Below, one piece after another: positions 46,176 through 64,000 of a DNA stretch of 64,000 nucleotides. How positions within the stretch are numbered: the first letter of the stretch is position 1; every line of letters starts with the position of its first letter. A program made the translations under genes and the position numbers. Origin of the DNA: Gammaproteobacteria bacterium (GTDB lineage: Bacteria; Pseudomonadota; Gammaproteobacteria; JAADGQ01); contig JAKITI010000011.1 in NCBI GenBank assembly GCA_021648145.1, positions 1 through 64,000 of the forward strand, in the 5' to 3' direction. The notes below the pieces were generated by a model. That model ran no database searches and had not been told where the DNA came from. It saw nothing but the letters and a program-made list of their open reading frames with translations.

Positions 46176-46583
46176 TCAAAATAGCCTCCACCCTCTTTTT
46201 TGTCTTTTGGTTGATTTGTACACCCAGTGAATGGATAGAGATGAAGTTGCGAAAGGTGAATGTTCACCCTGACGGCGCAGCTCATAATCAATGGGTTTGG
46301 TTGACTGAATATCTATTTTAAGTTCACCGTTGCTGGATGCTTTCCAGCATTGTAATGGTGAAACAATCCCTTTCTGAAACAGGCAATAATCGGCTTGGAT
46401 GGCAGATTGCCAATGGATTGTAATTTTTTGATAGCAAGTTTGGCCTTTATGCAGACTAATGCAGCGATCAGGCGTTATTTTCAAAGAAGGTTTGATGTCG
46501 GCCGCGTGAGTTTTTATTGATACACAACATATCAGTATTGCACTTAAGATTGTCGATCGGGTTATTCGTTTAATCATCGACAT
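46176..46583 (-). CDS. DUF3019-family exported protein
   Basis: The 135-aa protein has a Sec signal (STILSAILICCVSIKTHA) and the DUF3019 pattern: ITPDRCISLHKGQTCYQKI, then DYCLFQ, a CW pair and YELRRQG. Four cysteines probably form disulfides. The domain is known as a companion of MipA and two-component genes in marine gammaproteobacteria; function unknown. It starts three bases after the MipA stop. Confidence 0.8.
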   Translation of the reverse strand: MSMIKRITRSTILSAILICCVSIKTHAADIKPSLKITPDRCISLHKGQTCYQKITIHWQSAIQADYCLFQKGIVSPLQCWKASSNGELKIDIQSTKPIDYELRRQGEHSPFATSSLSIHWVYKSTKRQKRGWRLF

Positions 46584-46585
46584 GA

Positions 46586-47524
46586 TTAAAAAACATAGCT
46601 GATTGATGTGGAGAGAGATGTGCCACGACGGGTCGTGATCATGGGGCTTTGGAAAAAACTTTCGGAAAGTGCTTTATATTCTAGTGAACATCTAAACAGC
46701 CAGTTTTCAGTTAACGGATGAGCTGCACCTACCTTCAATGCCAATATGGATGCTCTATTTTTAGAATAAAATGTTTCGGTCTTTTTTTGCGGATCGTTCA
46801 GATCCAGATAGTAGTTAATAACTTTATAAGTATTATAGCGAACACGGCCTAGTGTGTATAAGTTCCAGTTACGTATTTGCCAGCTTCGTCCTGCCTCTAT
46901 TGAAGTGACAATATCGTTACGTCGACTGCTTATGTCTGTGAGTAATCCGAATTGGAAAATATAGTTTCCATAATAGGCGGTAGCTCTGCCTCCGACTAAG
47001 AAACCACTGTTCCTGTCACGCAAGTTTTTAAAACGATCAACAAGGGTTTCGTCAGTGAATAAGTTAGATTCTATAATTTCAGTTGAACTTTGAGTGCCAT
47101 CAATCTCTTCCTCTGGTGGCCCACCTTCAAATTCAAATATTTCAATTTTTTTGAAGCTGCTATACTCTATATCGTCATCATAAATTTGGCTTACAACAAT
47201 ATCGAGCGACCAGTAGTTATTATTCCAAGCGTTGTACCCTGCGGTGAAAAGTGTTGAAGAGTCTTCAATCACTTCAATGAATAGCCCTCTCCATTGAAAA
47301 CTGCCGTCAAGTAATAATGAGAATCCAGCTTGATCGCCTTCAGCCTCTATCGGGTTACGCTTTGTCGATGCCTTCAAACCAATTTCGATAAATCCGCCAC
47401 TTTCTGTATGGGGAGGAGTTTCCGTGCTTCGTACATCATGGGCGATATCTGCTGCTATGAGATATGAGGTGGCAAATAGGCAAACAAGAAATACGATGGA
47501 ACGTATCCCAATAAAAACTTTCAT
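46586..47524 (-). CDS. MipA/OmpV-family outer-membrane protein
   Basis: The 312-aa protein has a Sec signal (IVFLVCLFATSYLIAA), a barrel of amphipathic strands such as GGFIEIGLKAS and LNLYTLGRVRYNTY-like segments, an acidic loop (FEGGPPEEEIDGTQ), and a final aromatic strand SLSTSISYVF. This agrees with MipA/OmpV proteins that form 12-stranded barrels and in some species relate to murein synthesis or antimicrobial peptide response. It is first of four genes on the reverse strand with DUF3019, regulator and kinase. Confidence 0.8.
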   Translation of the reverse strand: MKVFIGIRSIVFLVCLFATSYLIAADIAHDVRSTETPPHTESGGFIEIGLKASTKRNPIEAEGDQAGFSLLLDGSFQWRGLFIEVIEDSSTLFTAGYNAWNNNYWSLDIVVSQIYDDDIEYSSFKKIEIFEFEGGPPEEEIDGTQSSTEIIESNLFTDETLVDRFKNLRDRNSGFLVGGRATAYYGNYIFQFGLLTDISSRRNDIVTSIEAGRSWQIRNWNLYTLGRVRYNTYKVINYYLDLNDPQKKTETFYSKNRASILALKVGAAHPLTENWLFRCSLEYKALSESFFQSPMITTRRGTSLSTSISYVF

Positions 47525-50899: not shown

Positions 50900-51736
50900 T
50901 TGCGGATAGATCAAATTATTAAGCCACAAAAAAAAGCTTCCTTTTTGTTATTTGGGGTCATGCTTGCTTCGAGTCACCTGAGTAGTGCGGGTGTTGCGAA
51001 TACCAAGCACAACTTAGGTAGCACGGGCATTAGTGGCTCAAGTAACTTTAGTGGCACAGCTGAAGTTTGTGTGTTTTGTCATACACCTCACGCGGGTAAT
51101 AGTGAGGCAGCCGTTCCTTTGTGGAATCGTAATTTAACAAATTCGGGTGCTTTTGCTACATACGATCAAATGGGAACCACAACACTTGATGGTGGTATCG
51201 AGGCCATTGGCTCAGTCTCTTTGGCGTGTCTGTCTTGTCATGATGGTTCTCAAGCGATGGATTCTGTGATCAATGAACCTGGTTCTGGTCTGGATGTACC
51301 TGCCTACTCTGTTGGGTCGTGGAGCGGTTTGGCTGGAAGTACAAATGGTACAATTCCTGTTGATGTCGTAACAAATCTGGGTAAAGATTTAACCAACGAC
51401 CACCCAGTGGGTGTGCAGTATGCCGGAGGTGGGTACTCGAATGCGAATCCGCAAGGCCCAGGCGTTGATGGCGATTTTAATCCCCCAGTTACAAAAATAA
51501 GTGGTACGACACGTGTTTGGTGGGTGAACACTTCAACAGAAGGTGGTACGAGTGAGTATGAAAAAACGGATATGAAACTCTATACGCGCGTAGGGACTCG
51601 TGGTAGAGGGTTTGGTGAGCCGCAGCCATATGTCGAGTGTGCTTCTTGTCATGATCCTCATGTTGATGAAAATCCAACTTTTTTACGCATTACTCCTTCA
51701 GGTAGTGCAGTCTGTTTGGCTTGTCACGTTAAATAA
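50900..51736 (+). CDS. tetraheme c-type cytochrome
   Basis: The 278-aa exported protein has a signal (ASFLLFGVMLASSHLSSA) and four CxxCH sites: CVFCH, CLSCH, CASCH and CLACH. The first heme region (NTKHNLG, then VCVFCHTPHAG and PLWNRNL) closely resembles the first domain of the undecaheme protein encoded at 60391, so the two are paralogs. The start is TTG 50900 with AAGG nine bases upstream. It is the first gene of the cytochrome cluster. Confidence 0.88.
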   Translation: MRIDQIIKPQKKASFLLFGVMLASSHLSSAGVANTKHNLGSTGISGSSNFSGTAEVCVFCHTPHAGNSEAAVPLWNRNLTNSGAFATYDQMGTTTLDGGIEAIGSVSLACLSCHDGSQAMDSVINEPGSGLDVPAYSVGSWSGLAGSTNGTIPVDVVTNLGKDLTNDHPVGVQYAGGGYSNANPQGPGVDGDFNPPVTKISGTTRVWWVNTSTEGGTSEYEKTDMKLYTRVGTRGRGFGEPQPYVECASCHDPHVDENPTFLRITPSGSAVCLACHVK

Positions 51737-51739
51737 CTT

Positions 51740-52729
51740 ATGAAACTACTTTCAAGAAAATTGATGCGATCTTTTGTAGGCATCCTTGTCGTATTTTTTT
51801 TAAATACTAATGGAGTCACTGCCAATGCGGGTATCAGTGAAGCATCGGTGGTTGCAACGGTAGGTAGCGAAAAAATTACAGTCTCACAGTTTCAGGCCTC
51901 TTTTCGTGCTGAGCTTCGCCAAAAATTTTACCATGGTTCAGTCTCTCCAGAGAAAAAAATAGCTCTGCGTCAGGAGGTGTTGGCCGATATGGTGGATAAC
52001 AAGTTATTGCTTCAAGAGGCAATTAAACGTGATCTGGCTCCAGACGAAAGCTGGATCAAGAGTGAAATTCAGCAGTGGAAAAAGCGCATTGAGGCTCGGG
52101 GCTGGCAATCGGAGAGTGACGTATGGTTAAAATCAGTCGCTCAAGAACTTAAAGAGAAGAGTTTGATTGAGCAGCTAAGCTTGAAAATTAAGGATGGTGT
52201 CGTTGCAAAAGAGAGTGATGTTCTGCGCTATTACGAACAAAATGCCGATAAATTTACAACGCCAGAGCAATTTCATATTTCATTAATTTTGTTGAAGGTT
52301 GCACCTTCATCAAAAGGCGAGGTATGGGACGCGGCATTTTCAAAAGTTGAATCTCTGGTTTCTGAAGTTAAAGGTGGGGCTAGTTTTGCAGATATAGCTC
52401 GTCGCGACTCTAACCATGAGTCAGCGTCCAGTGGCGGAGATTTGGGATATATACATAAAGGGATGTTGGCACCACAAGCTCAGAAAGTGCTGGATGGGTT
52501 GGTTCATGGTGCTGTGTCAAAGCCTGTAGTTTTGTTGCAAGGGGTGGCCATTATGAAGTTGCTTGATAAGCGTTCATCCAAATTGAATAAATTTGTGGAC
52601 GTTAAAGAGCGGGCAAGTGATTTATGGTTGCGCGAGCATCGTGCGCTTGCGTATCGCGAATTTATTAATAAGTTGCGTACTGCAACGCCAGTCACGACGA
52701 ATGAAGTGGTTTTGGCGAGTATAGAATAA
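51740..52729 (+). CDS. periplasmic SurA/PpiD-like peptidyl-prolyl isomerase
   Basis: The 329-aa protein has an N-terminal signal or anchor (FVGILVVFFLNTNGVTANA), a helical chaperone part, and a parvulin domain at about 175-275 (FHISLILLKVAPSSKGE, SGGDLGYIHKGMLAPQAQK). It would fold the outer-membrane barrel or cytochromes encoded beside it. It is four bases from the preceding cytochrome stop and nine from the next gene. Confidence 0.88.
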   Translation: MKLLSRKLMRSFVGILVVFFLNTNGVTANAGISEASVVATVGSEKITVSQFQASFRAELRQKFYHGSVSPEKKIALRQEVLADMVDNKLLLQEAIKRDLAPDESWIKSEIQQWKKRIEARGWQSESDVWLKSVAQELKEKSLIEQLSLKIKDGVVAKESDVLRYYEQNADKFTTPEQFHISLILLKVAPSSKGEVWDAAFSKVESLVSEVKGGASFADIARRDSNHESASSGGDLGYIHKGMLAPQAQKVLDGLVHGAVSKPVVLLQGVAIMKLLDKRSSKLNKFVDVKERASDLWLREHRALAYREFINKLRTATPVTTNEVVLASIE

Positions 52730-52737
52730 ATGACTGT

Positions 52738-54534
52738 ATGGCAATCAACTCAATAATAAACAGGAAAACATTTCAGTCATTATTGAGTGGTGCGGCTCTA
52801 CTATCTGTTTTGTTGTTTACTATTTTATGGGGTCGTTTGGCCATAGGAAGTGCGCCATTGAATTTGTCTGGCAGCGTTGGTTACAATTATCGCTCTTCTG
52901 ATCAAGTTGATCGAGATAAAGTGGTCAGTAGTCAGTTGGATGGCACAATAAAAGCCTCATCGTATTTGTGGCAACCCTGGTTTGCTACGGTGGGTGGGCG
53001 ATTGAGCGTGACACTTGATAGTAAGGAGTTTGATTATAGTGTTGGGCAGCAAAGTAAGGATGCAAAAATTATAACAGGAGAGTTTAATTTGAATGTTTTA
53101 CCACGGAGCAAAGTCCCTTTTTCGTTGATTTTTCATGCAAGTGATAGCCGAGTGGATACCCGAAGTGATAATAATTTACTGACTGACTCAGGGCAGGATT
53201 ATCAAACAACCCGTCTCGACCTTCGCCAATCATGGCTTACAGCAGGGAATCATCGTTTTCAAGGGCGCTTCAGTAAGGGGCAGTGGACTTCGGATAGAAA
53301 CCGCTTTGATGATCAAAATGTAGGGTTAGAAGCAAGATTACGCTTTCCAAACCAGACATTAACCACAACACTTAACAGTCAAACGACAAGTTTTTTGCAA
53401 ACAAAAGAAAGAAATACAGAGAATCGTTTGCTTGATGTCGATCATTTCTGGCGTCCTACAGAGTCATTGACGATTGATTCAATGTTTAGCCTATCTAATG
53501 TTGATACCTCCTTGCAGCAGCCGACATTGATTGACCCTGACGAATCAACTGTGAATACCATGCAGATGTCCAGTTTTGCGTTATGGCGTTCAAAAAGCCG
53601 TTTGCTTACCGTAAGTGGTGGAGTGAGAGTTGCCGATATCGATACGGAAATAACTGATAATGCGGGCGGTGTTTTTTCGACAAGTGCTCGTGGGGGTGCA
53701 AATTACCAGTTTACTAAAAATTTCAGGGGCGACATTAGTGTTAGCCTGGGAGCGAATGATGACGGCTTGAGTCAAGGTGATTTTAATAGTTTACGTGTGG
53801 GTGGGTTATACCAGTCTGATTTATATGATCTTTTTTCTAATGCGGCTTATCAGTGGTTTGCTTCGGGTTCAATGCAGCGAAATGAAGAGAGTAATGTTGA
53901 CGAAAATTATGGTGTTGACGAAAATCGTCTTGTTGGGCGTGTCGGGCACAATTTAAAAAAATCATGGATTGCGCCCATGTCATCCAATCTTAATCTGAAT
54001 TTGAGTCAGACACTCAATCAAAACCAGCAATTTGGTGATCAAGATGATGCAATAACACAGGTTGATCATTCGGTCAGCCTTGGCTGGAATAAATCGGCCA
54101 CATGGATGACAGCATATGCGCGACTGTTTGCAGAAGATCGACGTGATATTGATGATCAAGGCAATGCGCAGCAGCTATTTAACTTTCAACTATCTGGAAT
54201 GCTCCCATTGAATCGTCGGAGTGAGTTTAATGCTGCGATGACCACACAGTATACGTATTATGATAAGTATTACGGTGATTTTGAGAATATAGCGACAACA
54301 TCAGGTCAAATCGGTTATTATCACCAACGCATTTTTGGAGTAACCAATTTAGGGTTTCGCTCTGATCTGAATATTTCAAAGGTGTCATTAAGTAATGGTG
54401 TGGATCGTTCAGAGTGGGATAACCGCCTGGATTACAGCATCGGTTTGCTTGATTGTAGTTTAAGTTACCGAATTATTGATCGCGAAGGCGATCGTAGCAA
54501 TTTAATGCTGGTTCGGTTAGCTCGACGGTTTTAA
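52738..54534 (+). CDS. predicted outer-membrane beta-barrel protein (MtrB/porin-like)
   Basis: The 598-aa protein has an N-terminal hydrophobic segment (ALLSVLLFTILWGRLAI) and then repeated amphipathic strands alternating with Asn/Asp/Arg-rich turns (for instance LNLSGSVGYNYRSS, RLDLRQSWLTAGNHRFQG, LNLSQTLNQNQQFG). It ends with a basic aromatic strand (LMLVRLARRF). The length and pattern fit a large barrel of the kind that holds multiheme cytochromes in porin-cytochrome conduits. No CXXC pair of the MtrB type is present. A neighbouring PPIase and cytochromes support this. No close family is recognised. Confidence 0.65.
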   Translation: MAINSIINRKTFQSLLSGAALLSVLLFTILWGRLAIGSAPLNLSGSVGYNYRSSDQVDRDKVVSSQLDGTIKASSYLWQPWFATVGGRLSVTLDSKEFDYSVGQQSKDAKIITGEFNLNVLPRSKVPFSLIFHASDSRVDTRSDNNLLTDSGQDYQTTRLDLRQSWLTAGNHRFQGRFSKGQWTSDRNRFDDQNVGLEARLRFPNQTLTTTLNSQTTSFLQTKERNTENRLLDVDHFWRPTESLTIDSMFSLSNVDTSLQQPTLIDPDESTVNTMQMSSFALWRSKSRLLTVSGGVRVADIDTEITDNAGGVFSTSARGGANYQFTKNFRGDISVSLGANDDGLSQGDFNSLRVGGLYQSDLYDLFSNAAYQWFASGSMQRNEESNVDENYGVDENRLVGRVGHNLKKSWIAPMSSNLNLNLSQTLNQNQQFGDQDDAITQVDHSVSLGWNKSATWMTAYARLFAEDRRDIDDQGNAQQLFNFQLSGMLPLNRRSEFNAAMTTQYTYYDKYYGDFENIATTSGQIGYYHQRIFGVTNLGFRSDLNISKVSLSNGVDRSEWDNRLDYSIGLLDCSLSYRIIDREGDRSNLMLVRLARRF

Positions 54535-54728
54535 CTGGAAGGTAATTCTGGTTGAAAAAAGCTTTTACAGCAGGGAACAGTGAGTGTTCTGAAAGGCTTT
54601 CAAATTATGGGGTATCTTTTTTCATAATCTGACAGCTTTTTATAGAGAAGAAGTGTTTGGTAGGCTGTTTGTAAAAGGTAAGTGTAGTTTTAATTGTATT
54701 TTTTATTTTGTTGACGAGGAGGTGTTCA

Positions 54729-55157
54729 ATGATACTTAATCCCTTGCGCAAATTTATGAGTAAATTTGCTTTTGTCGGGGTATTTGCAGGGTTGGTTCTG
54801 ATGTTAGGTTCTCAGAATGTCCATGCTGAATATGGCGATGTGGTTATAAATAACTATTCTGATGCAGCGGGTATGCGCCCTGCTGTTTTTCCTCACTGGT
54901 TTCATCGTATTCGTTTTCGTTGCAAAGTATGTCATGCCGATTTAGGGTTTGAATTTAAAGCGGGTGGCAACAAAATTACAATGGCGAAGATTATTGACGG
55001 TCAGTTCTGCGGAGCTTGTCACAATGGTGAAGTCGCGTGGTCTGTAGAAAACTGTAATATGTGTCACTCGGGCAACCCTGGTACACCAACACATTTTCAT
55101 GGCAGCACAGTGCAGCGTTTAGTTGCGCCTGCGTATAAATCGCTAGAAAGCAAATAA
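54729..55157 (+). CDS. triheme c-type cytochrome
   Basis: The 142-aa exported protein has three heme sites (CKVCH, CGACH, CNMCH) and paired histidines (FPHWFHRIRFRC) for bis-His ligation, as in small c3/c7-like triheme proteins. The signal is AFVGVFAGLVLMLGSQNVHA. ATG 54729 follows GAGGAGG. It is 194 bases downstream of the barrel gene; that gap has no clear gene or terminator. Confidence 0.9.
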   Translation: MILNPLRKFMSKFAFVGVFAGLVLMLGSQNVHAEYGDVVINNYSDAAGMRPAVFPHWFHRIRFRCKVCHADLGFEFKAGGNKITMAKIIDGQFCGACHNGEVAWSVENCNMCHSGNPGTPTHFHGSTVQRLVAPAYKSLESK

Positions 55158-55168
55158 AGGAGAGGATT

Positions 55169-55828
55169 ATGAATTTTCAAACAAAATCGATTTCTCTGGC
55201 TTTCGCTTTAGCAGTGATTGCTCCATTAAGTTACGTTCAAGCAGAAAGTGTGGATCAGGCTGATGCAACCAAAGTCGCCGCTGTGAGTGCAGTTAATACA
55301 TTTAACCGCAATCTTAAAAAAGAGGCAAATGTTAATGCAGCGCCGCCAGAAGATGGTATCCATGATCCTGCAAATGACAGTACGCATGTTTTGCAACCAC
55401 CTAAAGAAGCTTTCAGTGGTTTCATAACGAGTAAATTCGGAAATCATGTGGATTGGGTGAAAACTTTGGAAGAAGGGAAAATTAATCCTCGTTGGGATCG
55501 AATTAACCCTGCAGAAGAAGCGTTTGTGATGGATATGGATATTGTGCGCGAAGTTAAATCTTCAGTGCCTGACGTTATCTTTCCTCATCGTCAGCATACC
55601 GAATGGCTGGCTTGTGCGAACTGTCACCCAACAATTTTTATTCCTCAGCAAAATGCAAATCAGTTTAATATGTCTTCCATTTTGTTGGGTAAAGATTGTG
55701 GTGTATGCCATGGTAAAGTGTCTTTTCCAATTACCACGCAATCATGCAGCTTATGCCACTCAAAACCAAAACCTGCAGATTGGGAGCCACCCATGAGTCA
55801 GGCTTCACTCAAAAACCCCTGGAAATAA
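55169..55828 (+). CDS. triheme c-type cytochrome
   Basis: The 219-aa exported protein has heme sites CANCH, CGVCH and CSLCH in its last 90 residues. The first half is a non-heme segment with EDGIHDPANDSTHVLQPP and DWVKTLEEGKINPRWD. His-rich FPHRQHTEWLACANCHP supplies distal ligands. It is a close paralog of the protein encoded at 57501. SD AGGAGAGG. The 168-base region after it contains an 11-bp inverted repeat. Confidence 0.9.
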   Translation: MNFQTKSISLAFALAVIAPLSYVQAESVDQADATKVAAVSAVNTFNRNLKKEANVNAAPPEDGIHDPANDSTHVLQPPKEAFSGFITSKFGNHVDWVKTLEEGKINPRWDRINPAEEAFVMDMDIVREVKSSVPDVIFPHRQHTEWLACANCHPTIFIPQQNANQFNMSSILLGKDCGVCHGKVSFPITTQSCSLCHSKPKPADWEPPMSQASLKNPWK

Positions 55829-55858
55829 TTTTCATTCGGGTTTGAAATTGAGATCAAT

Positions 55859-55892
55859 ACATGAGTTAAGTCTAGGTTGATTTAACTCATGT
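55859..55892. repeat. perfect 11-bp inverted repeat between cytochrome and lipoprotein genes
   Basis: ACATGAGTTAA (55859-55869) and TTAACTCATGT (55882-55892) flank 12 bases. No T-run follows, so it may be an operator or an mRNA stability stem inside the cluster. Confidence 0.5.
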
Positions 55893-55996
55893 GTTGAAAG
55901 ATTAAAATGGATCATAATTAAAACTTTAAAATTACAGATGGTTAAGCATGGATCGTTGTAGTGAGCTATGTCTGACTCATTTGGAGGCGGGAACTA

Positions 55997-57454
55997 ATGA
56001 ATAAAAAACTGTTGCAAAAGAGTGTCTTGGTAGCGATGGCTTTTAGTGTGGCGGCGTGTGGTTCTGGCATCAAGGAAACCAAAGAAGTGCTGCCTGATAT
56101 GAGTAGTAATTTAAAGGATAAAGTAGGTGATGTTGTTGAAAAAACAGAGCCCCAGATAGAAGAAAAAGTAGATGCAGAAGTCAAAGAAGTTGTAGTGATT
56201 CCGCTGAAGGATACAACAATAAAGGCTGAAACGATTATACAGCCTGCCAATAAAAATACATTTATTGTTCGTTCAACGAAAAAAGACTCCAGTCACCCAA
56301 AATATCAACAAGGAACGGATATAGGCTTCACTGTAAATGGTGTTCCGGGAAAAGACTTTGTTGTTGAGCGTGGTCAAACTTACACTTTTGATATTGATAC
56401 AGGAATGACCCACGATTTTTATTTGACGACAAACCCAAAAGGGTGGGGTACAGGCGCGATTGCAGAAAAAGAGGGTGTGACAGGTCAATTTACTTATAAA
56501 GGCCAAGTGAGCTTGACACCCAATGAAAAAACACCTGATGTACTTTATTACCAATGTGTCAACCATAAATATATGGGAGGCAAAATTTATGTGGCTGATA
56601 AGGGCGAAAAAATTGATGTTGATGCTTTGTCAGAACGTAAAAGCTCTGTTGTTAGCAAGCCAACAAAAAAATCTGTTTCTTCCAATCAGGTTGAACAAAA
56701 AATTAATTTTGCAAACATGATGTTGAGTGACTCCTCTAAATCTGTTAAACGCATTGCAGCAAGTGGCCATGGTGAGGCAAAAGGTCTCATGAAAAATGCG
56801 CGTGACTATCTGGCCGAATCCCGTTCTTTGTTGAAATCAGGTAAAAACTCTGAAGCACTGGATAAAGTTGATCTGTCATTGCGTACAATGAATGATGCAA
56901 CGCGTATGGTGCCAAGCACCGAGTCTGTTATTGACCAGGAAGCACGGTATGCAGAGCTTCTGGATGAAGTGGATAAATATGAAAAAACCTATAAAACTCA
57001 TGTTAAAGGTGCCAAAAGCGGCGATAAAATGAATGAAGGCCAGTTCTCTGGATTAGTGAGTAAAGCGAAGACACTGGCTAATTCAGGTGATTATACTGCG
57101 GCGAATAAAGATTTGCAGAAAGCCCAGCAATTAATCGCGGGCTCTCTCAATAAAATACTCCACGCTAAAACAGTGACATACGATAAAAACTTTGAAACAC
57201 CTCAAGAAGAGTATGAGTATGAGCTGGCACGTCACCAAAGTTATGAAGAGCTTATTCCATTAGGAATTGATCAAAAACAGCCTGCCGCAGGTACTTTGAA
57301 ATTGATGGATAATTTTGTGAAAAAAAGTACCTCCATAAAAGGGGAAGCGGTTGCGCTTGGTAAAAAAGGTGACTATAAAAATGGCGTTCTTGCTTTACAA
57401 GCGGCAACAGATAATTTAATACGTGCATTACGGATGATTGGAGTTGGTACATAG
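55997..57454 (+). CDS. cupredoxin-domain lipoprotein with helical tail
   Basis: The 485-aa precursor has a lipobox (FSVAAC, Cys21). A cupredoxin-like domain lies at about residues 85-205: YTFDIDTGMTHDFYL and DVLYYQCVNHKYMGGKIYV. The latter holds Cys-x2-His-x2-Met, and an upstream His is in the T-HDF strand, a plausible mononuclear copper site. The second half (about 235-485) is helical with TPR-like units (LMKNARDYLAESRSLLKSG, ALDKVDLSL) and no heme. It could carry electrons between cytochromes, or scaffold them. Position inside the cytochrome cluster supports a redox role. Family unassigned. Confidence 0.7.
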   Translation: MNKKLLQKSVLVAMAFSVAACGSGIKETKEVLPDMSSNLKDKVGDVVEKTEPQIEEKVDAEVKEVVVIPLKDTTIKAETIIQPANKNTFIVRSTKKDSSHPKYQQGTDIGFTVNGVPGKDFVVERGQTYTFDIDTGMTHDFYLTTNPKGWGTGAIAEKEGVTGQFTYKGQVSLTPNEKTPDVLYYQCVNHKYMGGKIYVADKGEKIDVDALSERKSSVVSKPTKKSVSSNQVEQKINFANMMLSDSSKSVKRIAASGHGEAKGLMKNARDYLAESRSLLKSGKNSEALDKVDLSLRTMNDATRMVPSTESVIDQEARYAELLDEVDKYEKTYKTHVKGAKSGDKMNEGQFSGLVSKAKTLANSGDYTAANKDLQKAQQLIAGSLNKILHAKTVTYDKNFETPQEEYEYELARHQSYEELIPLGIDQKQPAAGTLKLMDNFVKKSTSIKGEAVALGKKGDYKNGVLALQAATDNLIRALRMIGVGT

Positions 57455-57500
57455 TTTGTACCGAGTCTACGAGTCAATAAAGTTCAGAGTGAATTTTCAG

Positions 57501-58115
57501 ATGAAATATGACCTTCAACGAAGTCTCGGAAAGTTTGTATCCAGTGTTCTTTTAGCAAATATTGCTATTTTTTCAGGTGGCTTCGCTGCTGCTGATGAAA
57601 AGGGCAAACTGGTGCCTGTGCTGCCAGAGCGTGGCTCTCATTTTCAAACGGAAGCTGAAATTGTTCCTGTGGCAAAAGATGGTATTCATGACCCCTCGAA
57701 TAGTGCAGTAAAAAACTTGCAAGCGCCTGTCGAAGCAATGGAAGACTTTCCAAGAGATTCGGTTGGAATTACTGACTGGGTACAGGCTGTTGAAAAAGGG
57801 CTTATTAACCCACGAATGGGGCTGGATGGTTCCGGTAAAGAAAAAATGACGGTAGTCGACTTTGACGTTATTTTTAGTAAAACAGGATCCATGCCATTTG
57901 TACGTTATCCACATAAACAGCATACAGAGTGGCTGACTTGTGCAAATTGCCACCCCAAAATATTTATTCCTGAAAAAGGTGCAAACCCAGTGACAATGTC
58001 TGCAATTATGCAAGGGAAGTACTGTGGGGTGTGTCATGGTAAAGTTGCTTTTCCACCAACAATGAATTGTGGGCGATGTCATTCCGAACCTCGAAAAACC
58101 AAATTGCTACGCTAG
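57501..58115 (+). CDS. triheme c-type cytochrome, paralog of the 55169 protein
   Basis: The 204-aa protein repeats the pattern of its paralog: signal peptide, DGIHDPSNSAVKNLQAP, DWVQAVEKGLINPR, then HKQHTEWLTCANCHPKIFIP, CGVCHGKVAFP and CGRCH. ATG 57501 was chosen because the signal peptide (SSVLLANIAIFSGGFAAA) starts from it; an upstream in-frame start lacks support. Its end overlaps the NHL gene. Confidence 0.9.
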   Translation: MKYDLQRSLGKFVSSVLLANIAIFSGGFAAADEKGKLVPVLPERGSHFQTEAEIVPVAKDGIHDPSNSAVKNLQAPVEAMEDFPRDSVGITDWVQAVEKGLINPRMGLDGSGKEKMTVVDFDVIFSKTGSMPFVRYPHKQHTEWLTCANCHPKIFIPEKGANPVTMSAIMQGKYCGVCHGKVAFPPTMNCGRCHSEPRKTKLLR

Positions 58116-59200
58116 GCAAGGAGTTGTTTCGCTTTAGCGCTTTGTTTGCTACTCTGCTTTTTTTTGCAGGGTGTGCGTCCGAACCTAAGCCGCCCCCCGC
58201 ATGGGCTATTGCTGCCGCACCAGAATCTGTGCCGGCACCTTCACGTTCTGATGTGCTTGATAAACTGGCGGATTCATCTTCTGACCTGTTATTGAATGAT
58301 GAAGATAGTTTAGGGCTCTCTTCTTTAGCGAATGAGTCAATCCTGATCAATTGGGCGACCATTGATGGAGGAAGTGCTGGAAATAGATTAACAGGGTTAG
58401 CAGAGCAACTGCTTAAAAATCCTGTAGCAGCGGCTGCACGGGGCAAATATGTTTATATTGTTGATGAAGCAGATAAAGCCGTTTACCTCTATGATAATGA
58501 TCTGGATCGGCTTCAGCTTATTCCTAGTGTAAGCAAGCATATTAAACATGAAATTGCTGATATTTATGTGGCACCCGATCTCTCTTTTTACCTCACAGAT
58601 TCCAGTGCAGGTCGCGTTTTGCACTTTACTCAATCGGGCCAGTTGATTCAGGTATTTGAAGACTATTTGAATATGTCACGTCCGGTCGGCATCGCCGTTG
58701 ATGAATATCGAGGTTTTGTGCTGATTGCTGATGGTTCATATGATTATGTTCTGGTTTTTGATCGGCAGGGAATATTGATTGATGCGATCGGTGCCCGTGG
58801 AGATCGGGAAGGAGAGTTTAGAGGATTGACTTCTGTTGCTTTAGGCAATGAAGGTGTTTTTGTGACTTCGCGTATGGGCATAAGAGCGCAAGTTGTCAAT
58901 CTGGATAGTCGCTTTCGTTATGCTTTTCAAAAAAATACACTGGTATTTCCAACGGCTGTTGTTGTTGATGAGGATAATCAGACCTTTGTCAGCGACTCAT
59001 TTGATAACACAATAAAAATTTATAGAAAAGGTGAGTTGATTTCTACCTTTGGTGGAACAGGTAATGGCCCAAGCCAATTTAACAGAATTACTGATATGTG
59101 GTTGGATGAAGGTTTTTTGTATGTAACAGATAGTTTAAACAGACGTATTCAAGTCCTGCGTATTGTTCCTGAAGGATTACTGGAGCCTTTAGCTGAATAA
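58076..59200 (+). CDS. NHL-repeat lipoprotein
   Basis: The 374-aa precursor has a lipobox (LLFFAGC) and then repeated six-bladed-propeller units: VYIVDEADKAVYLYD, FYLTDSSAGRVLHFTQSG, VLIADGSYDYVLVFDRQG, TFVSDSFDNTIKIYRKG and LYVTDSLNRRIQVLRI. It probably sits on the outer membrane and mediates protein-protein contacts. It overlaps the triheme gene end by 40 bases. A second NHL gene follows, and the two share the overall layout. Confidence 0.88.
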   Translation: MSFRTSKNQIATLGKELFRFSALFATLLFFAGCASEPKPPPAWAIAAAPESVPAPSRSDVLDKLADSSSDLLLNDEDSLGLSSLANESILINWATIDGGSAGNRLTGLAEQLLKNPVAAAARGKYVYIVDEADKAVYLYDNDLDRLQLIPSVSKHIKHEIADIYVAPDLSFYLTDSSAGRVLHFTQSGQLIQVFEDYLNMSRPVGIAVDEYRGFVLIADGSYDYVLVFDRQGILIDAIGARGDREGEFRGLTSVALGNEGVFVTSRMGIRAQVVNLDSRFRYAFQKNTLVFPTAVVVDEDNQTFVSDSFDNTIKIYRKGELISTFGGTGNGPSQFNRITDMWLDEGFLYVTDSLNRRIQVLRIVPEGLLEPLAE

Positions 59201-60294
59201 TGAAACTTTTTGAAAAACAGTTGATCATTCTTGTCACATTTATAAGCATCTTATTGATATCTGGGTGTGCAACAGCGCCCGCAACCTTGTCTTTTATTCA
59301 ACCAGATGGTGCCACTTCACAAGTTTGGCCCGCTAAGCCTGAAACCGCACGCTATCGTTATATTGGCGAGTTGATTGGCGAAGAAAATTTTCAGTCTGCA
59401 AGTGAGGATGGGCAGAACTTTGCGGTACAGGCTTTTAAATGGCTGGTGGGATTAACATCTCGAAAGTACCAACCTAAAGTGCTCCAACGGCCACAAAATG
59501 GACTGGTTGATAGTGACGGGCGAATATTGGTCACTGATGTCAGTCGCCAGGCCATTTATGTTTTTGATAAAATAGCTGGCAAGCTGGATGTATGGGAAAT
59601 GGCAGAGAAAAATCGTCGCTTCATTGCCCCTTCTGCAATTGTTGAAGACGGTCAAGGGGGGTTTCTGGTCACAGATGCTGAGCTTGGCATGATTGTTCGC
59701 CTGGATCATGAGGGTCGTCCACAAGAAGTTTTTGCTGATGAAGTTCTCGTTCGCCCTGTGGGCATGGCTCGCCATGTTAAAACGGGTCGAATTTATGTAG
59801 CCGATGTGCGCGAACATAAAATTAAAGTGCTGGACTCTGATGGCGTACTTCTTGAAACATGGGGAGAACACGGTGAAACGATTGATGCACTCAATACACC
59901 CACTTATCTCTCTCTTGTCAATGATCAGCTCTATATCACCGATACATTCAATTCACGAGTCAAGGTGCTTGATCTTAATGGTAAAGTGCTTAAAATTATT
60001 GGCAAACGCGGCCTCTATGTAGGCGATCTTCCGCGCCCTAAGGGTGTGGCAGTCGATACCAAAGGGCATATTTATGTGATGGAGTCTTATTATGACCACT
60101 TGCTGATCTATAATCAGGAAGGTGACCTGCTATTGCCCATTGGAGGCAGTGGCCATGGAGTCGGGCAGTTTTATCTGCCTGCGGGTGTCTGGACAGGTCA
60201 GGGAAACAGAATTTATATAGCAGATATGTTTAACGGTCGCGTTGTTATTTTTCAATACTTGGAAGAAGATAATATTGCTGGATATACTCAGTAG
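59200..60294 (+). CDS. NHL-repeat lipoprotein, second copy
   Basis: The 364-aa protein has a signal with lipobox (ILLISGC) and NHL units: ILVTDVSRQAIYVFDKIAG, FLVTDAELGMIVRLDHEGR, IYVADVREHKIKVLDSDG, LYITDTFNSRVKVLDLNG, and IYIADMFNGRVVIFQYL. It starts one base inside the previous stop (TAATG), so the two are translated together. Likely partner of the cytochromes on the cell surface. Confidence 0.9.
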   Translation: MKLFEKQLIILVTFISILLISGCATAPATLSFIQPDGATSQVWPAKPETARYRYIGELIGEENFQSASEDGQNFAVQAFKWLVGLTSRKYQPKVLQRPQNGLVDSDGRILVTDVSRQAIYVFDKIAGKLDVWEMAEKNRRFIAPSAIVEDGQGGFLVTDAELGMIVRLDHEGRPQEVFADEVLVRPVGMARHVKTGRIYVADVREHKIKVLDSDGVLLETWGEHGETIDALNTPTYLSLVNDQLYITDTFNSRVKVLDLNGKVLKIIGKRGLYVGDLPRPKGVAVDTKGHIYVMESYYDHLLIYNQEGDLLLPIGGSGHGVGQFYLPAGVWTGQGNRIYIADMFNGRVVIFQYLEEDNIAGYTQ

Positions 60295-60390
60295 TGCCAT
60301 AAACCATGAAAAGTCTGGATGAGCAAGTCAGTGAACAAAAGAAATTATGATTCATTTTACAGTCAATTCAACCCTTTTTTTACAGTGACA

Positions 60391-62940
60391 ATGAAAAGGG
60401 TGCTGTTACTGGTCGCGCTTCTTTTTAGCGCTTCATCCCAGGCTGAAATTATTTCAGATGTCAGTAATACCAAGCATAATTTTTCGGCATCAACCATCCC
60501 TGGATTGCCCGGTAATGAAGAGCGAAGCATGAAGGCAACGAGCGAGTCTCAGGTCTGTGTGTTCTGTCATACTCCTCATGGCGCATCTGATTTGCCTAAA
60601 GCGCCACTGTGGAATCGCTCGCTATCCACCAGCTCTTATATACCTTATAGCTCAAGCTCTCTGGATGCGACTGATTTAGGTCAGCCAGAAGGTAAGTCAA
60701 AACTCTGCTTGTCATGTCATGATGGTACGATTGCAATAGGTTCTGTTAATGTGCTCAACCGCAAAGAAAACCCAACGATTTCTTTTACCGGAACGGAGTC
60801 TGATGGGTCGATTGACGAAAGTGATCAAGGCAGTCGCAGTGGTTATACGCGTCGCTTGGGTGTCGATCTTTCAAATGATCACCCGATCTCTTTTACATAT
60901 GATAGTGCATTGAGCCTGAGAGATGGTGAATTACGTGCTCCTAATGAACCGGGTCAGTCGGTTGCTGAACGTAGCCCCGGAAACCACGCTAAGTTGCCGT
61001 TAGAAGATGGCCAGGTGGAGTGTATTAGTTGTCATGACCCACATGTCACTGATGATGCTTCTGAAGTCAGTATCAAATTTTTGCGAGCCAATCGTTTTCA
61101 ACAAGTACCGCCAACCGAAGGTGCTTTTAATGAGAGTGGTGATATTATCTGTCTGGGTTGCCATAAAAAGGAAGGTTGGGTGAATTCAGCGCATGCTAAT
61201 CCTCTGGTTGCGGATGAACTTTATGAACGTTCAGCCGCAGAATTACGGGAGTTTCCTCAAGGTATGCCGGTGTGGCAAGGGGCTTGCGTGAACTGCCATG
61301 ATCCACATGCTGTTGAAGGTTCTCGTCGTCTTTTACGTGAAGGGTCGGATGGACAGGAGCAAATTGCCTTTAATGGGGCGAAATATAAGCAGGGTGGTGG
61401 CCCAGCGATTGAAGAAACATGTTATATGTGTCACTCGAAAGATGGCGGTGTTTTGCAAGGCCAGGGAAGCACGGGCTTTCAAGTGCCTGATGTCAAAACA
61501 GATTTTACAACGATGTTGCGTCGAATGCCGATTGCAACGATTGATCAGCCCGCTGGAGTGGAAGTTCATTCCATTGGTACAGGAAACGGAACTCAGCTAG
61601 GTAAAGACTTTGTAGAGTCACGCGAATTATTAGGGCATGGTGATCTAAGTAACCGCCATGCAGAGTGCACCGATTGTCATAATCCACATCGTGTTATGAA
61701 AAAACGTAAATTTAATGATGATGGTGCTATTCCTGATGAAGGGGGTACACATATTGCGCCTACTAATATTGCATCAGGTGTGTTGCGTGGCGTGTTCGGT
61801 GTGGAGCCTAAATATGGTAATACTGCATTTGGTTCACTTGCAACAGGTTATGATGTGAAGCGAGGTGATGGAGGTATTGGAGCCAGCGAAGCTGTTGAGT
61901 CTGAGCATTTAACTCGCGAGTATCAACTCTGTTTGAAGTGCCATTCAAATTATGCTTATGATACTCCACCGATGTTAGGTGGGCGCTATCGTGGGGGAAC
62001 ACCACCAGGTACAAACGCAATGGAGCAATATACGGATCAAGCAATGGAGTATCAGTCACCGGATGACCATAAAGGCGAAGGTACCTCTCCAACACCTACA
62101 GGCGCTCATCCCGATTATGCAGACAATAATCATCGTTCATGGCACCCTGTTGTCAATGACACTGGAAGAACGCCTGAAGTTCGTAAAGCGGACAAAGATA
62201 ACTGGTTACCCCCTTTTAATCAGAATGTGGGGAATCAAAATATGTACTGTACCGATTGCCACGGTTCAGATACACCGCCAGGTTCAATTGAACCAATGGG
62301 CGGGGAAAACGGTTTTGCCTGGGGACCACATGGCTCGAATAATAACTTTATATTGAAAGGCGCATGGGATGACCGAACTGGAGGGGATGGCGCGAATGGT
62401 GGCACGCCTAATGCACTCTGTTTCAAATGCCATGACTATAATGATTATGGAAAATTCGTAGATCTGTCCAGTGGAGAGATGTCCGGCGAAAGCGGTTTTC
62501 AGGTTCAATCACCTTCAATTACTGGTTCTCAATGTATCGACTTTGCTTTTCAAAATAAAAATTTGCACAGTGGGCATGTGCAAGCATTGACTGGTGTGAC
62601 TAATTTTCGTTGCTCTTTATGCCATGTTGCCGTGCCACATGGCTGGAAAAACAAAACATTCCTTGCAAATTTGAATGATGTGGGGCCAGAGGCGGGCTTG
62701 GCACCGGGCACTCAGGTAAGAAATAATAAAGAAGATCGCTATTACCAAGGCCCTTATTACAATGGCGCTGTGCTAAAAGTGAAAAATTTCGCACGAAGTG
62801 GTGAGTGGCTGCCTGAAAACTGTGGCTCAGTCGGTGTGCCAGGCAACAGTGAATCTGGATTGAACTGGATGACGGGGCAAAAAGGCAGCCCAAATCAATT
62901 TTCTGACCCCAATAGCGAGGGATGTAACGCAATTCCATGA
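60391..62940 (+). CDS. undecaheme c-type cytochrome
   Basis: The 849-aa exported protein has eleven CxxCH sites, in order: CVFCH, CLSCH, CISCH, CLGCH, CVNCH, CYMCH, CTDCH, CLKCH, CTDCH, CFKCH and CSLCH. Several are followed by DPH or NPH. The signal is VLLLVALLFSASSQAE; ATG 60391 begins it directly, while an upstream in-frame ATG at 60319 would add 24 residues. The N-terminal region (NTKHNFS, VCVFCHTPHG, PLWNRSL) is shared with the tetraheme protein at 50900. It is a good candidate for the terminal surface or conduit cytochrome. It overlaps the ResB gene by four bases. Confidence 0.92.
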   Translation: MKRVLLLVALLFSASSQAEIISDVSNTKHNFSASTIPGLPGNEERSMKATSESQVCVFCHTPHGASDLPKAPLWNRSLSTSSYIPYSSSSLDATDLGQPEGKSKLCLSCHDGTIAIGSVNVLNRKENPTISFTGTESDGSIDESDQGSRSGYTRRLGVDLSNDHPISFTYDSALSLRDGELRAPNEPGQSVAERSPGNHAKLPLEDGQVECISCHDPHVTDDASEVSIKFLRANRFQQVPPTEGAFNESGDIICLGCHKKEGWVNSAHANPLVADELYERSAAELREFPQGMPVWQGACVNCHDPHAVEGSRRLLREGSDGQEQIAFNGAKYKQGGGPAIEETCYMCHSKDGGVLQGQGSTGFQVPDVKTDFTTMLRRMPIATIDQPAGVEVHSIGTGNGTQLGKDFVESRELLGHGDLSNRHAECTDCHNPHRVMKKRKFNDDGAIPDEGGTHIAPTNIASGVLRGVFGVEPKYGNTAFGSLATGYDVKRGDGGIGASEAVESEHLTREYQLCLKCHSNYAYDTPPMLGGRYRGGTPPGTNAMEQYTDQAMEYQSPDDHKGEGTSPTPTGAHPDYADNNHRSWHPVVNDTGRTPEVRKADKDNWLPPFNQNVGNQNMYCTDCHGSDTPPGSIEPMGGENGFAWGPHGSNNNFILKGAWDDRTGGDGANGGTPNALCFKCHDYNDYGKFVDLSSGEMSGESGFQVQSPSITGSQCIDFAFQNKNLHSGHVQALTGVTNFRCSLCHVAVPHGWKNKTFLANLNDVGPEAGLAPGTQVRNNKEDRYYQGPYYNGAVLKVKNFARSGEWLPENCGSVGVPGNSESGLNWMTGQKGSPNQFSDPNSEGCNAIP

Positions 62941-63893
62941 TTAAGATACTGGCCTCTTCCCGCTTGACGTTGGTGGGAATGCTACTTCTTGGTGGGGGGG
63001 CAATTCTCAGCTACGGTAATCCTGTCGACATGCCCGTATGGGTGCTGGTTATTCCAATGGCATTTTTGGCATTGAATCTGGTTTGTGCCATGATCAGCAA
63101 CCCTCGAATCAATCGTCGCTACGGTCTGCTGGTATTTCACGCAGGCCTATTAAGTGTAGTCATTCTTGCGGCCATCGGTCGTTTGACCCACTTTGATGCA
63201 CATGTTGAAATGCTCAATGGCGCAGCATTTGACTCTAAAGATTTAATCAACATCCGCCAGGGTCCTTTACATAACAGCAGTGCTCTGGAAACTGTTCAAT
63301 TTGTTCAGGGCGATTACACCATCAGCTACTCTCCAGGTATTGCACGCGGCCCAACACATAATCAAGTCACATTACCCACTAATGATGGTGAAGGGCAGCC
63401 GGTGATATTTGGGGATGCTGTTCCATTAGTGATTCAAGGTTACCGTTTTTATACCAGTTTCCATAAAGGTTTTGCCCCAATTATGACCTGGATTCCTAAT
63501 CAAGGCGCAAAAATCACAGGTACAGTGCATATGCCGCCTTATCCACTTTATGATTATCGACAAGCAAATCGCTGGCAGCCCCCCGGAGCGCAGGAAATTA
63601 AATTCTGGTTACGACTGGGTACCGGGATTGATGCCAACAGTGATTGGGTATTGGATGCTAAAAAAGCAACAGGGATATTGGTTGTGAATAGTGGCGAGCG
63701 GCGTATTGAGTTGCAACCAGGAGAAATGGCACAGTTACCTGGCGGTCAATTACGCTATGAATACATGACCAGCTGGATGGGCTATAAAGTATTCTATGAT
63801 CCCACGTTACATTGGCTATTTTTTACATCAGTGATTGGAGTGATAGGATTGCTGTTTCATTTTTGGCAAAAGGTTAATAAAAAATTAATATGA
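62937..63893 (+). CDS. ResB-family cytochrome c biogenesis protein (System II)
   Basis: The 318-aa protein has three N-terminal helices (LTLVGMLLLGGGAILS, WVLVIPMAFLALNLVCAMI, LLVFHAGLLSVVILAAI), a periplasmic domain of about 200 residues and a last helix (WLFFTSVIGVIGLLFHF). This is a compact ResB/Ccs1, the partner of CcsA in heme attachment. It overlaps both the undecaheme gene and the next gene by ATGA-type overlaps, so heme attachment is genetically tied to the cytochromes. Confidence 0.85.
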   Translation: MIKILASSRLTLVGMLLLGGGAILSYGNPVDMPVWVLVIPMAFLALNLVCAMISNPRINRRYGLLVFHAGLLSVVILAAIGRLTHFDAHVEMLNGAAFDSKDLINIRQGPLHNSSALETVQFVQGDYTISYSPGIARGPTHNQVTLPTNDGEGQPVIFGDAVPLVIQGYRFYTSFHKGFAPIMTWIPNQGAKITGTVHMPPYPLYDYRQANRWQPPGAQEIKFWLRLGTGIDANSDWVLDAKKATGILVVNSGERRIELQPGEMAQLPGGQLRYEYMTSWMGYKVFYDPTLHWLFFTSVIGVIGLLFHFWQKVNKKLI

Positions 63894-64000
63894 TTGGATA
63901 TGCAGGCGAACTTCCGTGGTTATGGGCAGGGCTGGCGGCTTATGCAGTCGCAACATTTATGGCCATTTATTCTGTGGTTTTTCGTCCACAAATGATCGCC
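63890..64000 (+). CDS. CcsA/ResC-family heme handling protein (5' part)
   Basis: Only the first 37 codons are inside the window: IGYAGELPWLWAGLAAYAVA and then FMAIYSVVFRP, a membrane helix consistent with CcsA/ResC proteins. The start overlaps the ResB stop (ATGA). The call relies mainly on the ResB neighbour. Confidence 0.65.
   Translation, partial: MIGYAGELPWLWAGLAAYAVATFMAIYSVVFRPQMIA

Follow-up and report, generated by a model that had tools for sequence, protein, structure and literature searches.

Which electron-transfer system is encoded by the run of cytochrome genes that closes the sequence analysed here, and in which direction would it carry electrons? The window, i.e., the whole stretch of 64,000 nucleotides that was analysed, corresponds to positions 1–64,000 of a contig of 110,153 bases from a gammaproteobacterial genome of 2.66 Mb (98% complete), whose named close relatives are unclassified Gammaproteobacteria MAGs. 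ORF calls in this window revealed eleven complete genes on the plus strand between positions 50,900 and 63,893, followed by the start of a twelfth at 63,890, as originally predicted:

uetA, 50,900–51,736, plus strand: secreted tetraheme cytochrome with 4 CXXCH, related to OmcE, a nanowire subunit of Geobacter
uetB, 51,740–52,729, plus strand: periplasmic SurA/parvulin-type peptidyl-prolyl isomerase
uetC, 52,738–54,534, plus strand: predicted outer-membrane beta-barrel of about 28 strands, with a C-terminal Phe and no Pfam family
uetD, 54,708–55,157, plus strand: c7-type triheme cytochrome (TIGR04257); a later ATG is a possible true start
uetE, 55,169–55,828, plus strand: c7-type triheme cytochrome with an N-terminal extension
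uetF, 55,997–57,454, plus strand: lipoprotein with a putative cupredoxin-like domain (H139, C187, H190, M193) and a helical/TPR-like C-terminal part
uetG, 57,501–58,115, plus strand: c7-type triheme cytochrome, paralogue of uetE (50% identity); longest ORF from 57,438
uetH, 58,067–59,200, plus strand: NHL beta-propeller lipoprotein
uetI, 59,200–60,294, plus strand: NHL beta-propeller lipoprotein
uetJ, 60,391–62,940, plus strand: secreted undecaheme cytochrome with 11 CXXCH, hemes 1–4 OmcE/UetA-like; longest ORF from 60,319
resB, 62,937–63,893, plus strand: short ResB-like cytochrome c biogenesis protein
ccsA (start), 63,890–64,000, plus strand: System II heme lyase with the WWD motif, running on to about 64,729 of the contig, followed by a TPR protein

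Since the contig extends to 110,153, with CcsA and the TPR protein downstream, the cluster is truncated by the window edge alone. Motif counting gave 24 CXXCH sites, all of them plain, distributed as 4, 3, 3, 3, and 11 among UetA, UetD, UetE, UetG, and UetJ, which is the set of one tetraheme, three triheme, and one undecaheme cytochromes that had been foreseen; the length of 849 aa then given for the last of them agrees with the more likely UetJ start at 60,391, and for UetG, the start is more likely at about 57,501. Searches against Pfam and NCBIfam assigned Paired_CXXCH to UetA and UetJ, c7 triheme to UetD, UetE, and UetG, SurA_N plus rotamase to UetB, NHL to UetH and UetI, and ResB and CcsA to the last two genes, in agreement with the parvulin isomerase, NHL proteins, and heme-attachment genes of the original prediction. 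Lipoboxes were present in UetF, UetH, and UetI. Promoter and terminator scans of the locus yielded scores near the chance level. A PilU-type ATPase gene located 3′ of the TPR gene was excluded from the module, as none of the other Uet loci fetched contained a homologue. On the minus strand of the window (46,179–47,524), a MipA-family barrel gene and a DUF3019 gene adjoin a response regulator.

The founding description of the Uet (undecaheme electron transfer) system, in Candidatus Tenderia electrophaga and the Tenderiales, is reportedly that of Eddie in 2022. The set is proposed to enable CO2-fixing bacteria to take electrons from minerals or electrodes across their outer membrane. The locus described here is such a cluster, with the full uetABCDEFGHIJ set, in a new host. 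For Tenderiales, Hoover et al. 2023 (PMC10734462) give the following Uet components, reported also from Gallionella: a tetraheme cytochrome (UetA), a PPIase (UetB), a barrel (UetC), trihemes (UetDEG), NHL proteins (UetHI), and an undecaheme cytochrome (UetJ). UetJ has been reported in Leptothrix as well. The trihemes of Ca. Tenderia are Tel_16515, 16520, and 16530, the TPR protein is Tel_16525, and the undecaheme cytochrome is Tel_16545 (PMC5371394), a numbering that implies the order D, E, F, G ... J found in our locus. The ten gene types A to J, their published order, and the heme numbers 4, 3, 3, 3, and 11 thus coincide with those of Ca. Tenderia and Gallionella, as do the PPIase, the barrel, the TPR protein, and the two NHL proteins, whereas the host, a member of a small gammaproteobacterial group, is different. 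This comparison with Ca. Tenderia was based on published descriptions, the loci compared by sequence being those of Sideroxyarcus, Rubrivivax, and other MAGs, none of them labelled Tenderia. In consequence, this is a new occurrence of a described system and no new conduit; the link to Ca. Tenderia electrophaga made in the original prediction was right. In Ca. Tenderia grown on a cathode, the trihemes were among the most highly expressed genes, and the uet cytochromes showed no significant response to the electrode potential (PMC5371394). Our literature search found no study that had tested a Uet protein by biochemical or genetic means.

The synteny survey that had been proposed was carried out on more than 40 related loci, most of which kept the order A-B-C-D-E-F-G-H-I-J-ResB-CcsA-TPR, with barrels as low as about 22% identity. 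UetC was found in 43 of the 369 sampled genomes of the class, 42 of them solid (about 11%); the sampled relatives included only one genome of the same genus and one more of the same family, all the others sharing only the class. Weaker UetC matches appeared in other classes of the phylum, where synteny was also kept. Two architectures were distinguished, one like that of the window and a second one (Burkholderiales, Sideroxyarcus, and loci of other classes) in which one or two short ORFs resemble F, a D-like triheme gene is added, and usually one more NHL gene lies upstream. Among the loci compared, UetD was the most conserved part (58–96% identity) and UetC the least (22–40% outside the genus), with a motif, YLWQPWFA, that was invariant in ten sequences. 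In three genomes of one family (loci L047, L119, and L120), the cluster lacked UetJ and ResB followed directly after UetI, so UetJ is not universally required there. Since Uet had been described before and is common (UetC in 42 of 369 genomes), the novelty is much lower than the original prediction implied; the locus itself is real, well conserved, and probably functional, as had been stated. In two other genomes, extra UetJ-like multiheme genes were seen downstream of the normal UetJ (L043 and L123 in G066, and L112 in G293), and in G066, ResB and CcsA come only after the second undecaheme gene.

The next question is whether UetC could provide a passage through the outer membrane. An AlphaFold2 model of this 598-aa protein, built with ten natural sequences as input, had a pLDDT of 83.4 and around 28 long strands. 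The best PDB match found by Foldseek was MtrB from the Mtr complex (E 6.8e-10, TM-score 0.41), the next one reaching 5.5e-08; TM-scores were about 0.4, and the matches besides MtrB were generic beta-barrels. Neither Pfam (at E up to 0.1) nor NCBIfam gave any match. The C-terminal residue is Phe, as in many outer-membrane proteins. UetC is therefore predicted to be an outer-membrane beta-barrel, and the large barrel that had been proposed, for which family and structure-based searches had been suggested, is borne out at the level of a structural model.

Resemblance to MtrCAB and MtoAB consists in this large barrel with MtrB as its best solved fold match. Unlike them, Uet has more than three components, lacks the decaheme MtrA/MtoA and MtrC, and its barrel shows no match to the MtrB sequence family. 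Membership in MtrAB/MtoAB was rejected, as DmsE/MtrA decaheme models scored far under the cut-off and the barrel had no MtrB/PioB family match. The PCC3 systems of iron oxidisers (PMC5566968) similarly have a barrel along with multiheme cytochromes, both secreted and periplasmic, and occur in iron-oxidiser lineages, but their cytochromes carry from 10 to more than 60 hemes and are accompanied by a 5-TM inner-membrane protein that is absent here; with a largest cytochrome of 11 hemes and ResB and CcsA as the only inner-membrane proteins, membership in PCC3 was also rejected. The lack of a decaheme MtrA-like plug, of any structure with a cytochrome inside UetC, and of specific barrel matches other than MtrB could also be accommodated by a network of periplasmic cytochromes that works for some other pathway, the barrel then being just a secretion or structural porin. 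We consider this highly improbable, because the barrel always lies between UetA/B and the trihemes, the OmcE-like cytochromes carry signal peptides, MtrB is the best fold match, and no soluble oxidation enzyme, including those of nitrite or sulfur oxidation, was linked to the cluster at any of the more than 40 loci. The barrel, cytochromes, PPIase, and ResB/CcsA of the claimed complete conduit, devoid of MtrA and MtrC and with its own folding and heme-attachment partners, are all in place; that they make it complete is what we infer.

Regarding the accessory components, UetF showed the ligand set of a type-1 copper site (His and Cys-X2-His-X2-Met; H139, C187, H190, and M193), invariant in the 11 gamma-type sequences and kept in 33–38 of 39 long UetF. 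No copper protein was matched by phmmer when the query was the isolated UetF domain, and only a profile search gave a weak hit, to pseudoazurin (E 0.099). This conserved pattern supports UetF as a lipoprotein with a putative cupredoxin-like type-1 copper domain, the cupredoxin lipoprotein originally claimed, with weak backing from the databases.

ResB and CcsA, the latter with the WWD motif and conserved His, correspond to a System II pair in which ResB is short and divergent. Of 14 Uet-positive relatives, 12 had a short ResB (about 320–380 aa); in the two exceptions, the contig bearing the cluster stops short (4.9 and 12.3 kb). None of the 80 Uet-negative relatives had such a short form, their ResB being either full-length (open frames of about 580–717 aa) or missing. 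Because CcmH occurs in 13 of the 14 Uet-positive genomes and the short ResB sits within the cluster, a role of ResB/CcsA as the general maturation system of the cell was rejected. In Geobacter, it has already been suggested that ResB-ResC pairs beside multiheme genes work specifically for the genes next to them (PMC2700814), and by the locus numbers in the papers, GSU0613/0614 of G. sulfurreducens lie between PpcA (GSU0612) and OmcE (GSU0618). The linked short ResB-CcsA pair and the copper lipoprotein are parts that would be needed in attempts at expression or reconstitution.

OmcE is a nanowire cytochrome of Geobacter that polymerises into electrically conducting filaments, in which heme is shared between subunits (PMC9473688, PMC12954529). 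UetA matched only two distinct solved PDB sequences, OmcE (7tfs, E 5.9e-27) and 9yuq (E 1.1e-22), and with the UetA family profile, these values improved to 1.6e-37 and 4.3e-37, respectively. The UetA/OmcE alignment was full-length and included four CXXCH and four distal His, with all four heme motifs aligned; the four heme-motif His of UetA and four others were each kept in at least 54 of 55 sequences, one further His being poorly conserved. The UetA-like ligand pattern recurs at hemes 1–4 of UetJ, which matched OmcE at 1.9e-21, and by sequence pattern, all 11 UetJ hemes could be bis-His. At the sequence level, both UetA and the N-terminal tetraheme portion of UetJ are thus relatives of OmcE. 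This recurrence implies that the pattern alone is no proof of polymerisation, and no structural inference was drawn from the UetJ model, given its pLDDT of 28. The literature search, with the founding 2022 Uet description lying outside it, found no paper linking Uet with OmcE, nor, with the same exception, any mention in the Uet literature of the UetF copper ligands, the ResB/CcsA pair with its TPR continuation, or an association with RuBisCO. What our analysis adds is accordingly the kinship with OmcE, the putative copper site of UetF, the heme-attachment pair dedicated to the cluster, and the association with autotrophy.

Compared through papers, the GSU0612-0618 locus of G. sulfurreducens shares with Uet an OmcE-like tetraheme cytochrome, a c7 triheme cytochrome, and a ResB plus ResC/HemX pair; unlike Uet, it has been studied for Fe(III) reduction. 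To our knowledge, it has no UetC-type barrel, UetF, or UetJ. The Uet conduit might also work outward, in the respiratory reduction of extracellular minerals or partners: UetA is a relative of OmcE, UetD, UetE, and UetG are PpcA-like c7 cytochromes, OmcE and c7 cytochromes serve metal reduction in Geobacter, and conduits may be reversible (PMC10734462). We regard export as unlikely, since RuBisCO large subunit was found in 41 of 42 UetC-positive genomes, versus 150 of 327 UetC-negative genomes of the class (Fisher p 4e-12, phylogeny ignored), and the published Uet hosts are cathode- or iron-oxidising autotrophs. Related species are non-independent and the search model PF00016 also picks up RuBisCO-like proteins, so this association, which falls on lineages that are mostly autotrophic anyway, is support and not proof. 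Together with the hosts published so far, it makes electron uptake, and not export, the more probable direction.

We therefore consider it likely that the Uet conduit supplies an autotrophic bacterium with electrons from a solid or mineral donor outside the cell (lithoautotrophy). In this uptake scheme, whose route, direction, donor, localisation, and helper roles we infer, extracellular OmcE-like UetA and/or UetJ would take electrons up, and a cytochrome seated in the UetC barrel would carry them across the outer membrane. In the periplasm, the c7 trihemes UetD/E/G, perhaps with the copper lipoprotein UetF, would pass them to inner-membrane complexes. UetB would aid folding of the barrel and of secreted proteins, UetH/I, as NHL lipoproteins, would provide scaffolds for assembly at the outer membrane, and heme attachment would be the task of the short ResB-CcsA pair dedicated to the cluster. 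Alongside Cyc2 and Mto, Uet is a leading candidate for the means by which autotrophs take up electrons from solids. It is common among the sampled genomes of the class, with relatives in other classes of the phylum, and nearly confined to genomes with RuBisCO.

A more specific version, possible but rather doubtful, is that of a nanowire machine for electron uptake, in which UetA would polymerise in an OmcE-like manner into an extracellular filament and UetJ would join this filament to the UetC barrel. If true, OmcE-type nanowires would be a common uptake device of lithoautotrophic proteobacteria, beyond their use for export by metal reducers; the OmcE relation offers here a concrete and testable structural hypothesis, that of filaments.

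Finally, related genes were observed at other sites of the genome. Not far from the Ccm operon, a pentaheme cytochrome with 27% identity to UetA (L126, genome contig C2, 22,001–40,000; 7164–8995, minus strand) adjoins a UetI-like NHL lipoprotein (31%); together they form another OmcE-like/NHL pair of this genome. Three related cytochromes of about 8 hemes, a PPIase-like protein of 328 aa, and a tetraheme cytochrome lie together in another contig (L125, C14, 66,001–86,000; 8489–15,653, plus strand), and a stand-alone UetE/UetG-like triheme cytochrome is found away from the cluster (L124, C3, 74,001–94,000; 11,858–12,439, plus strand).
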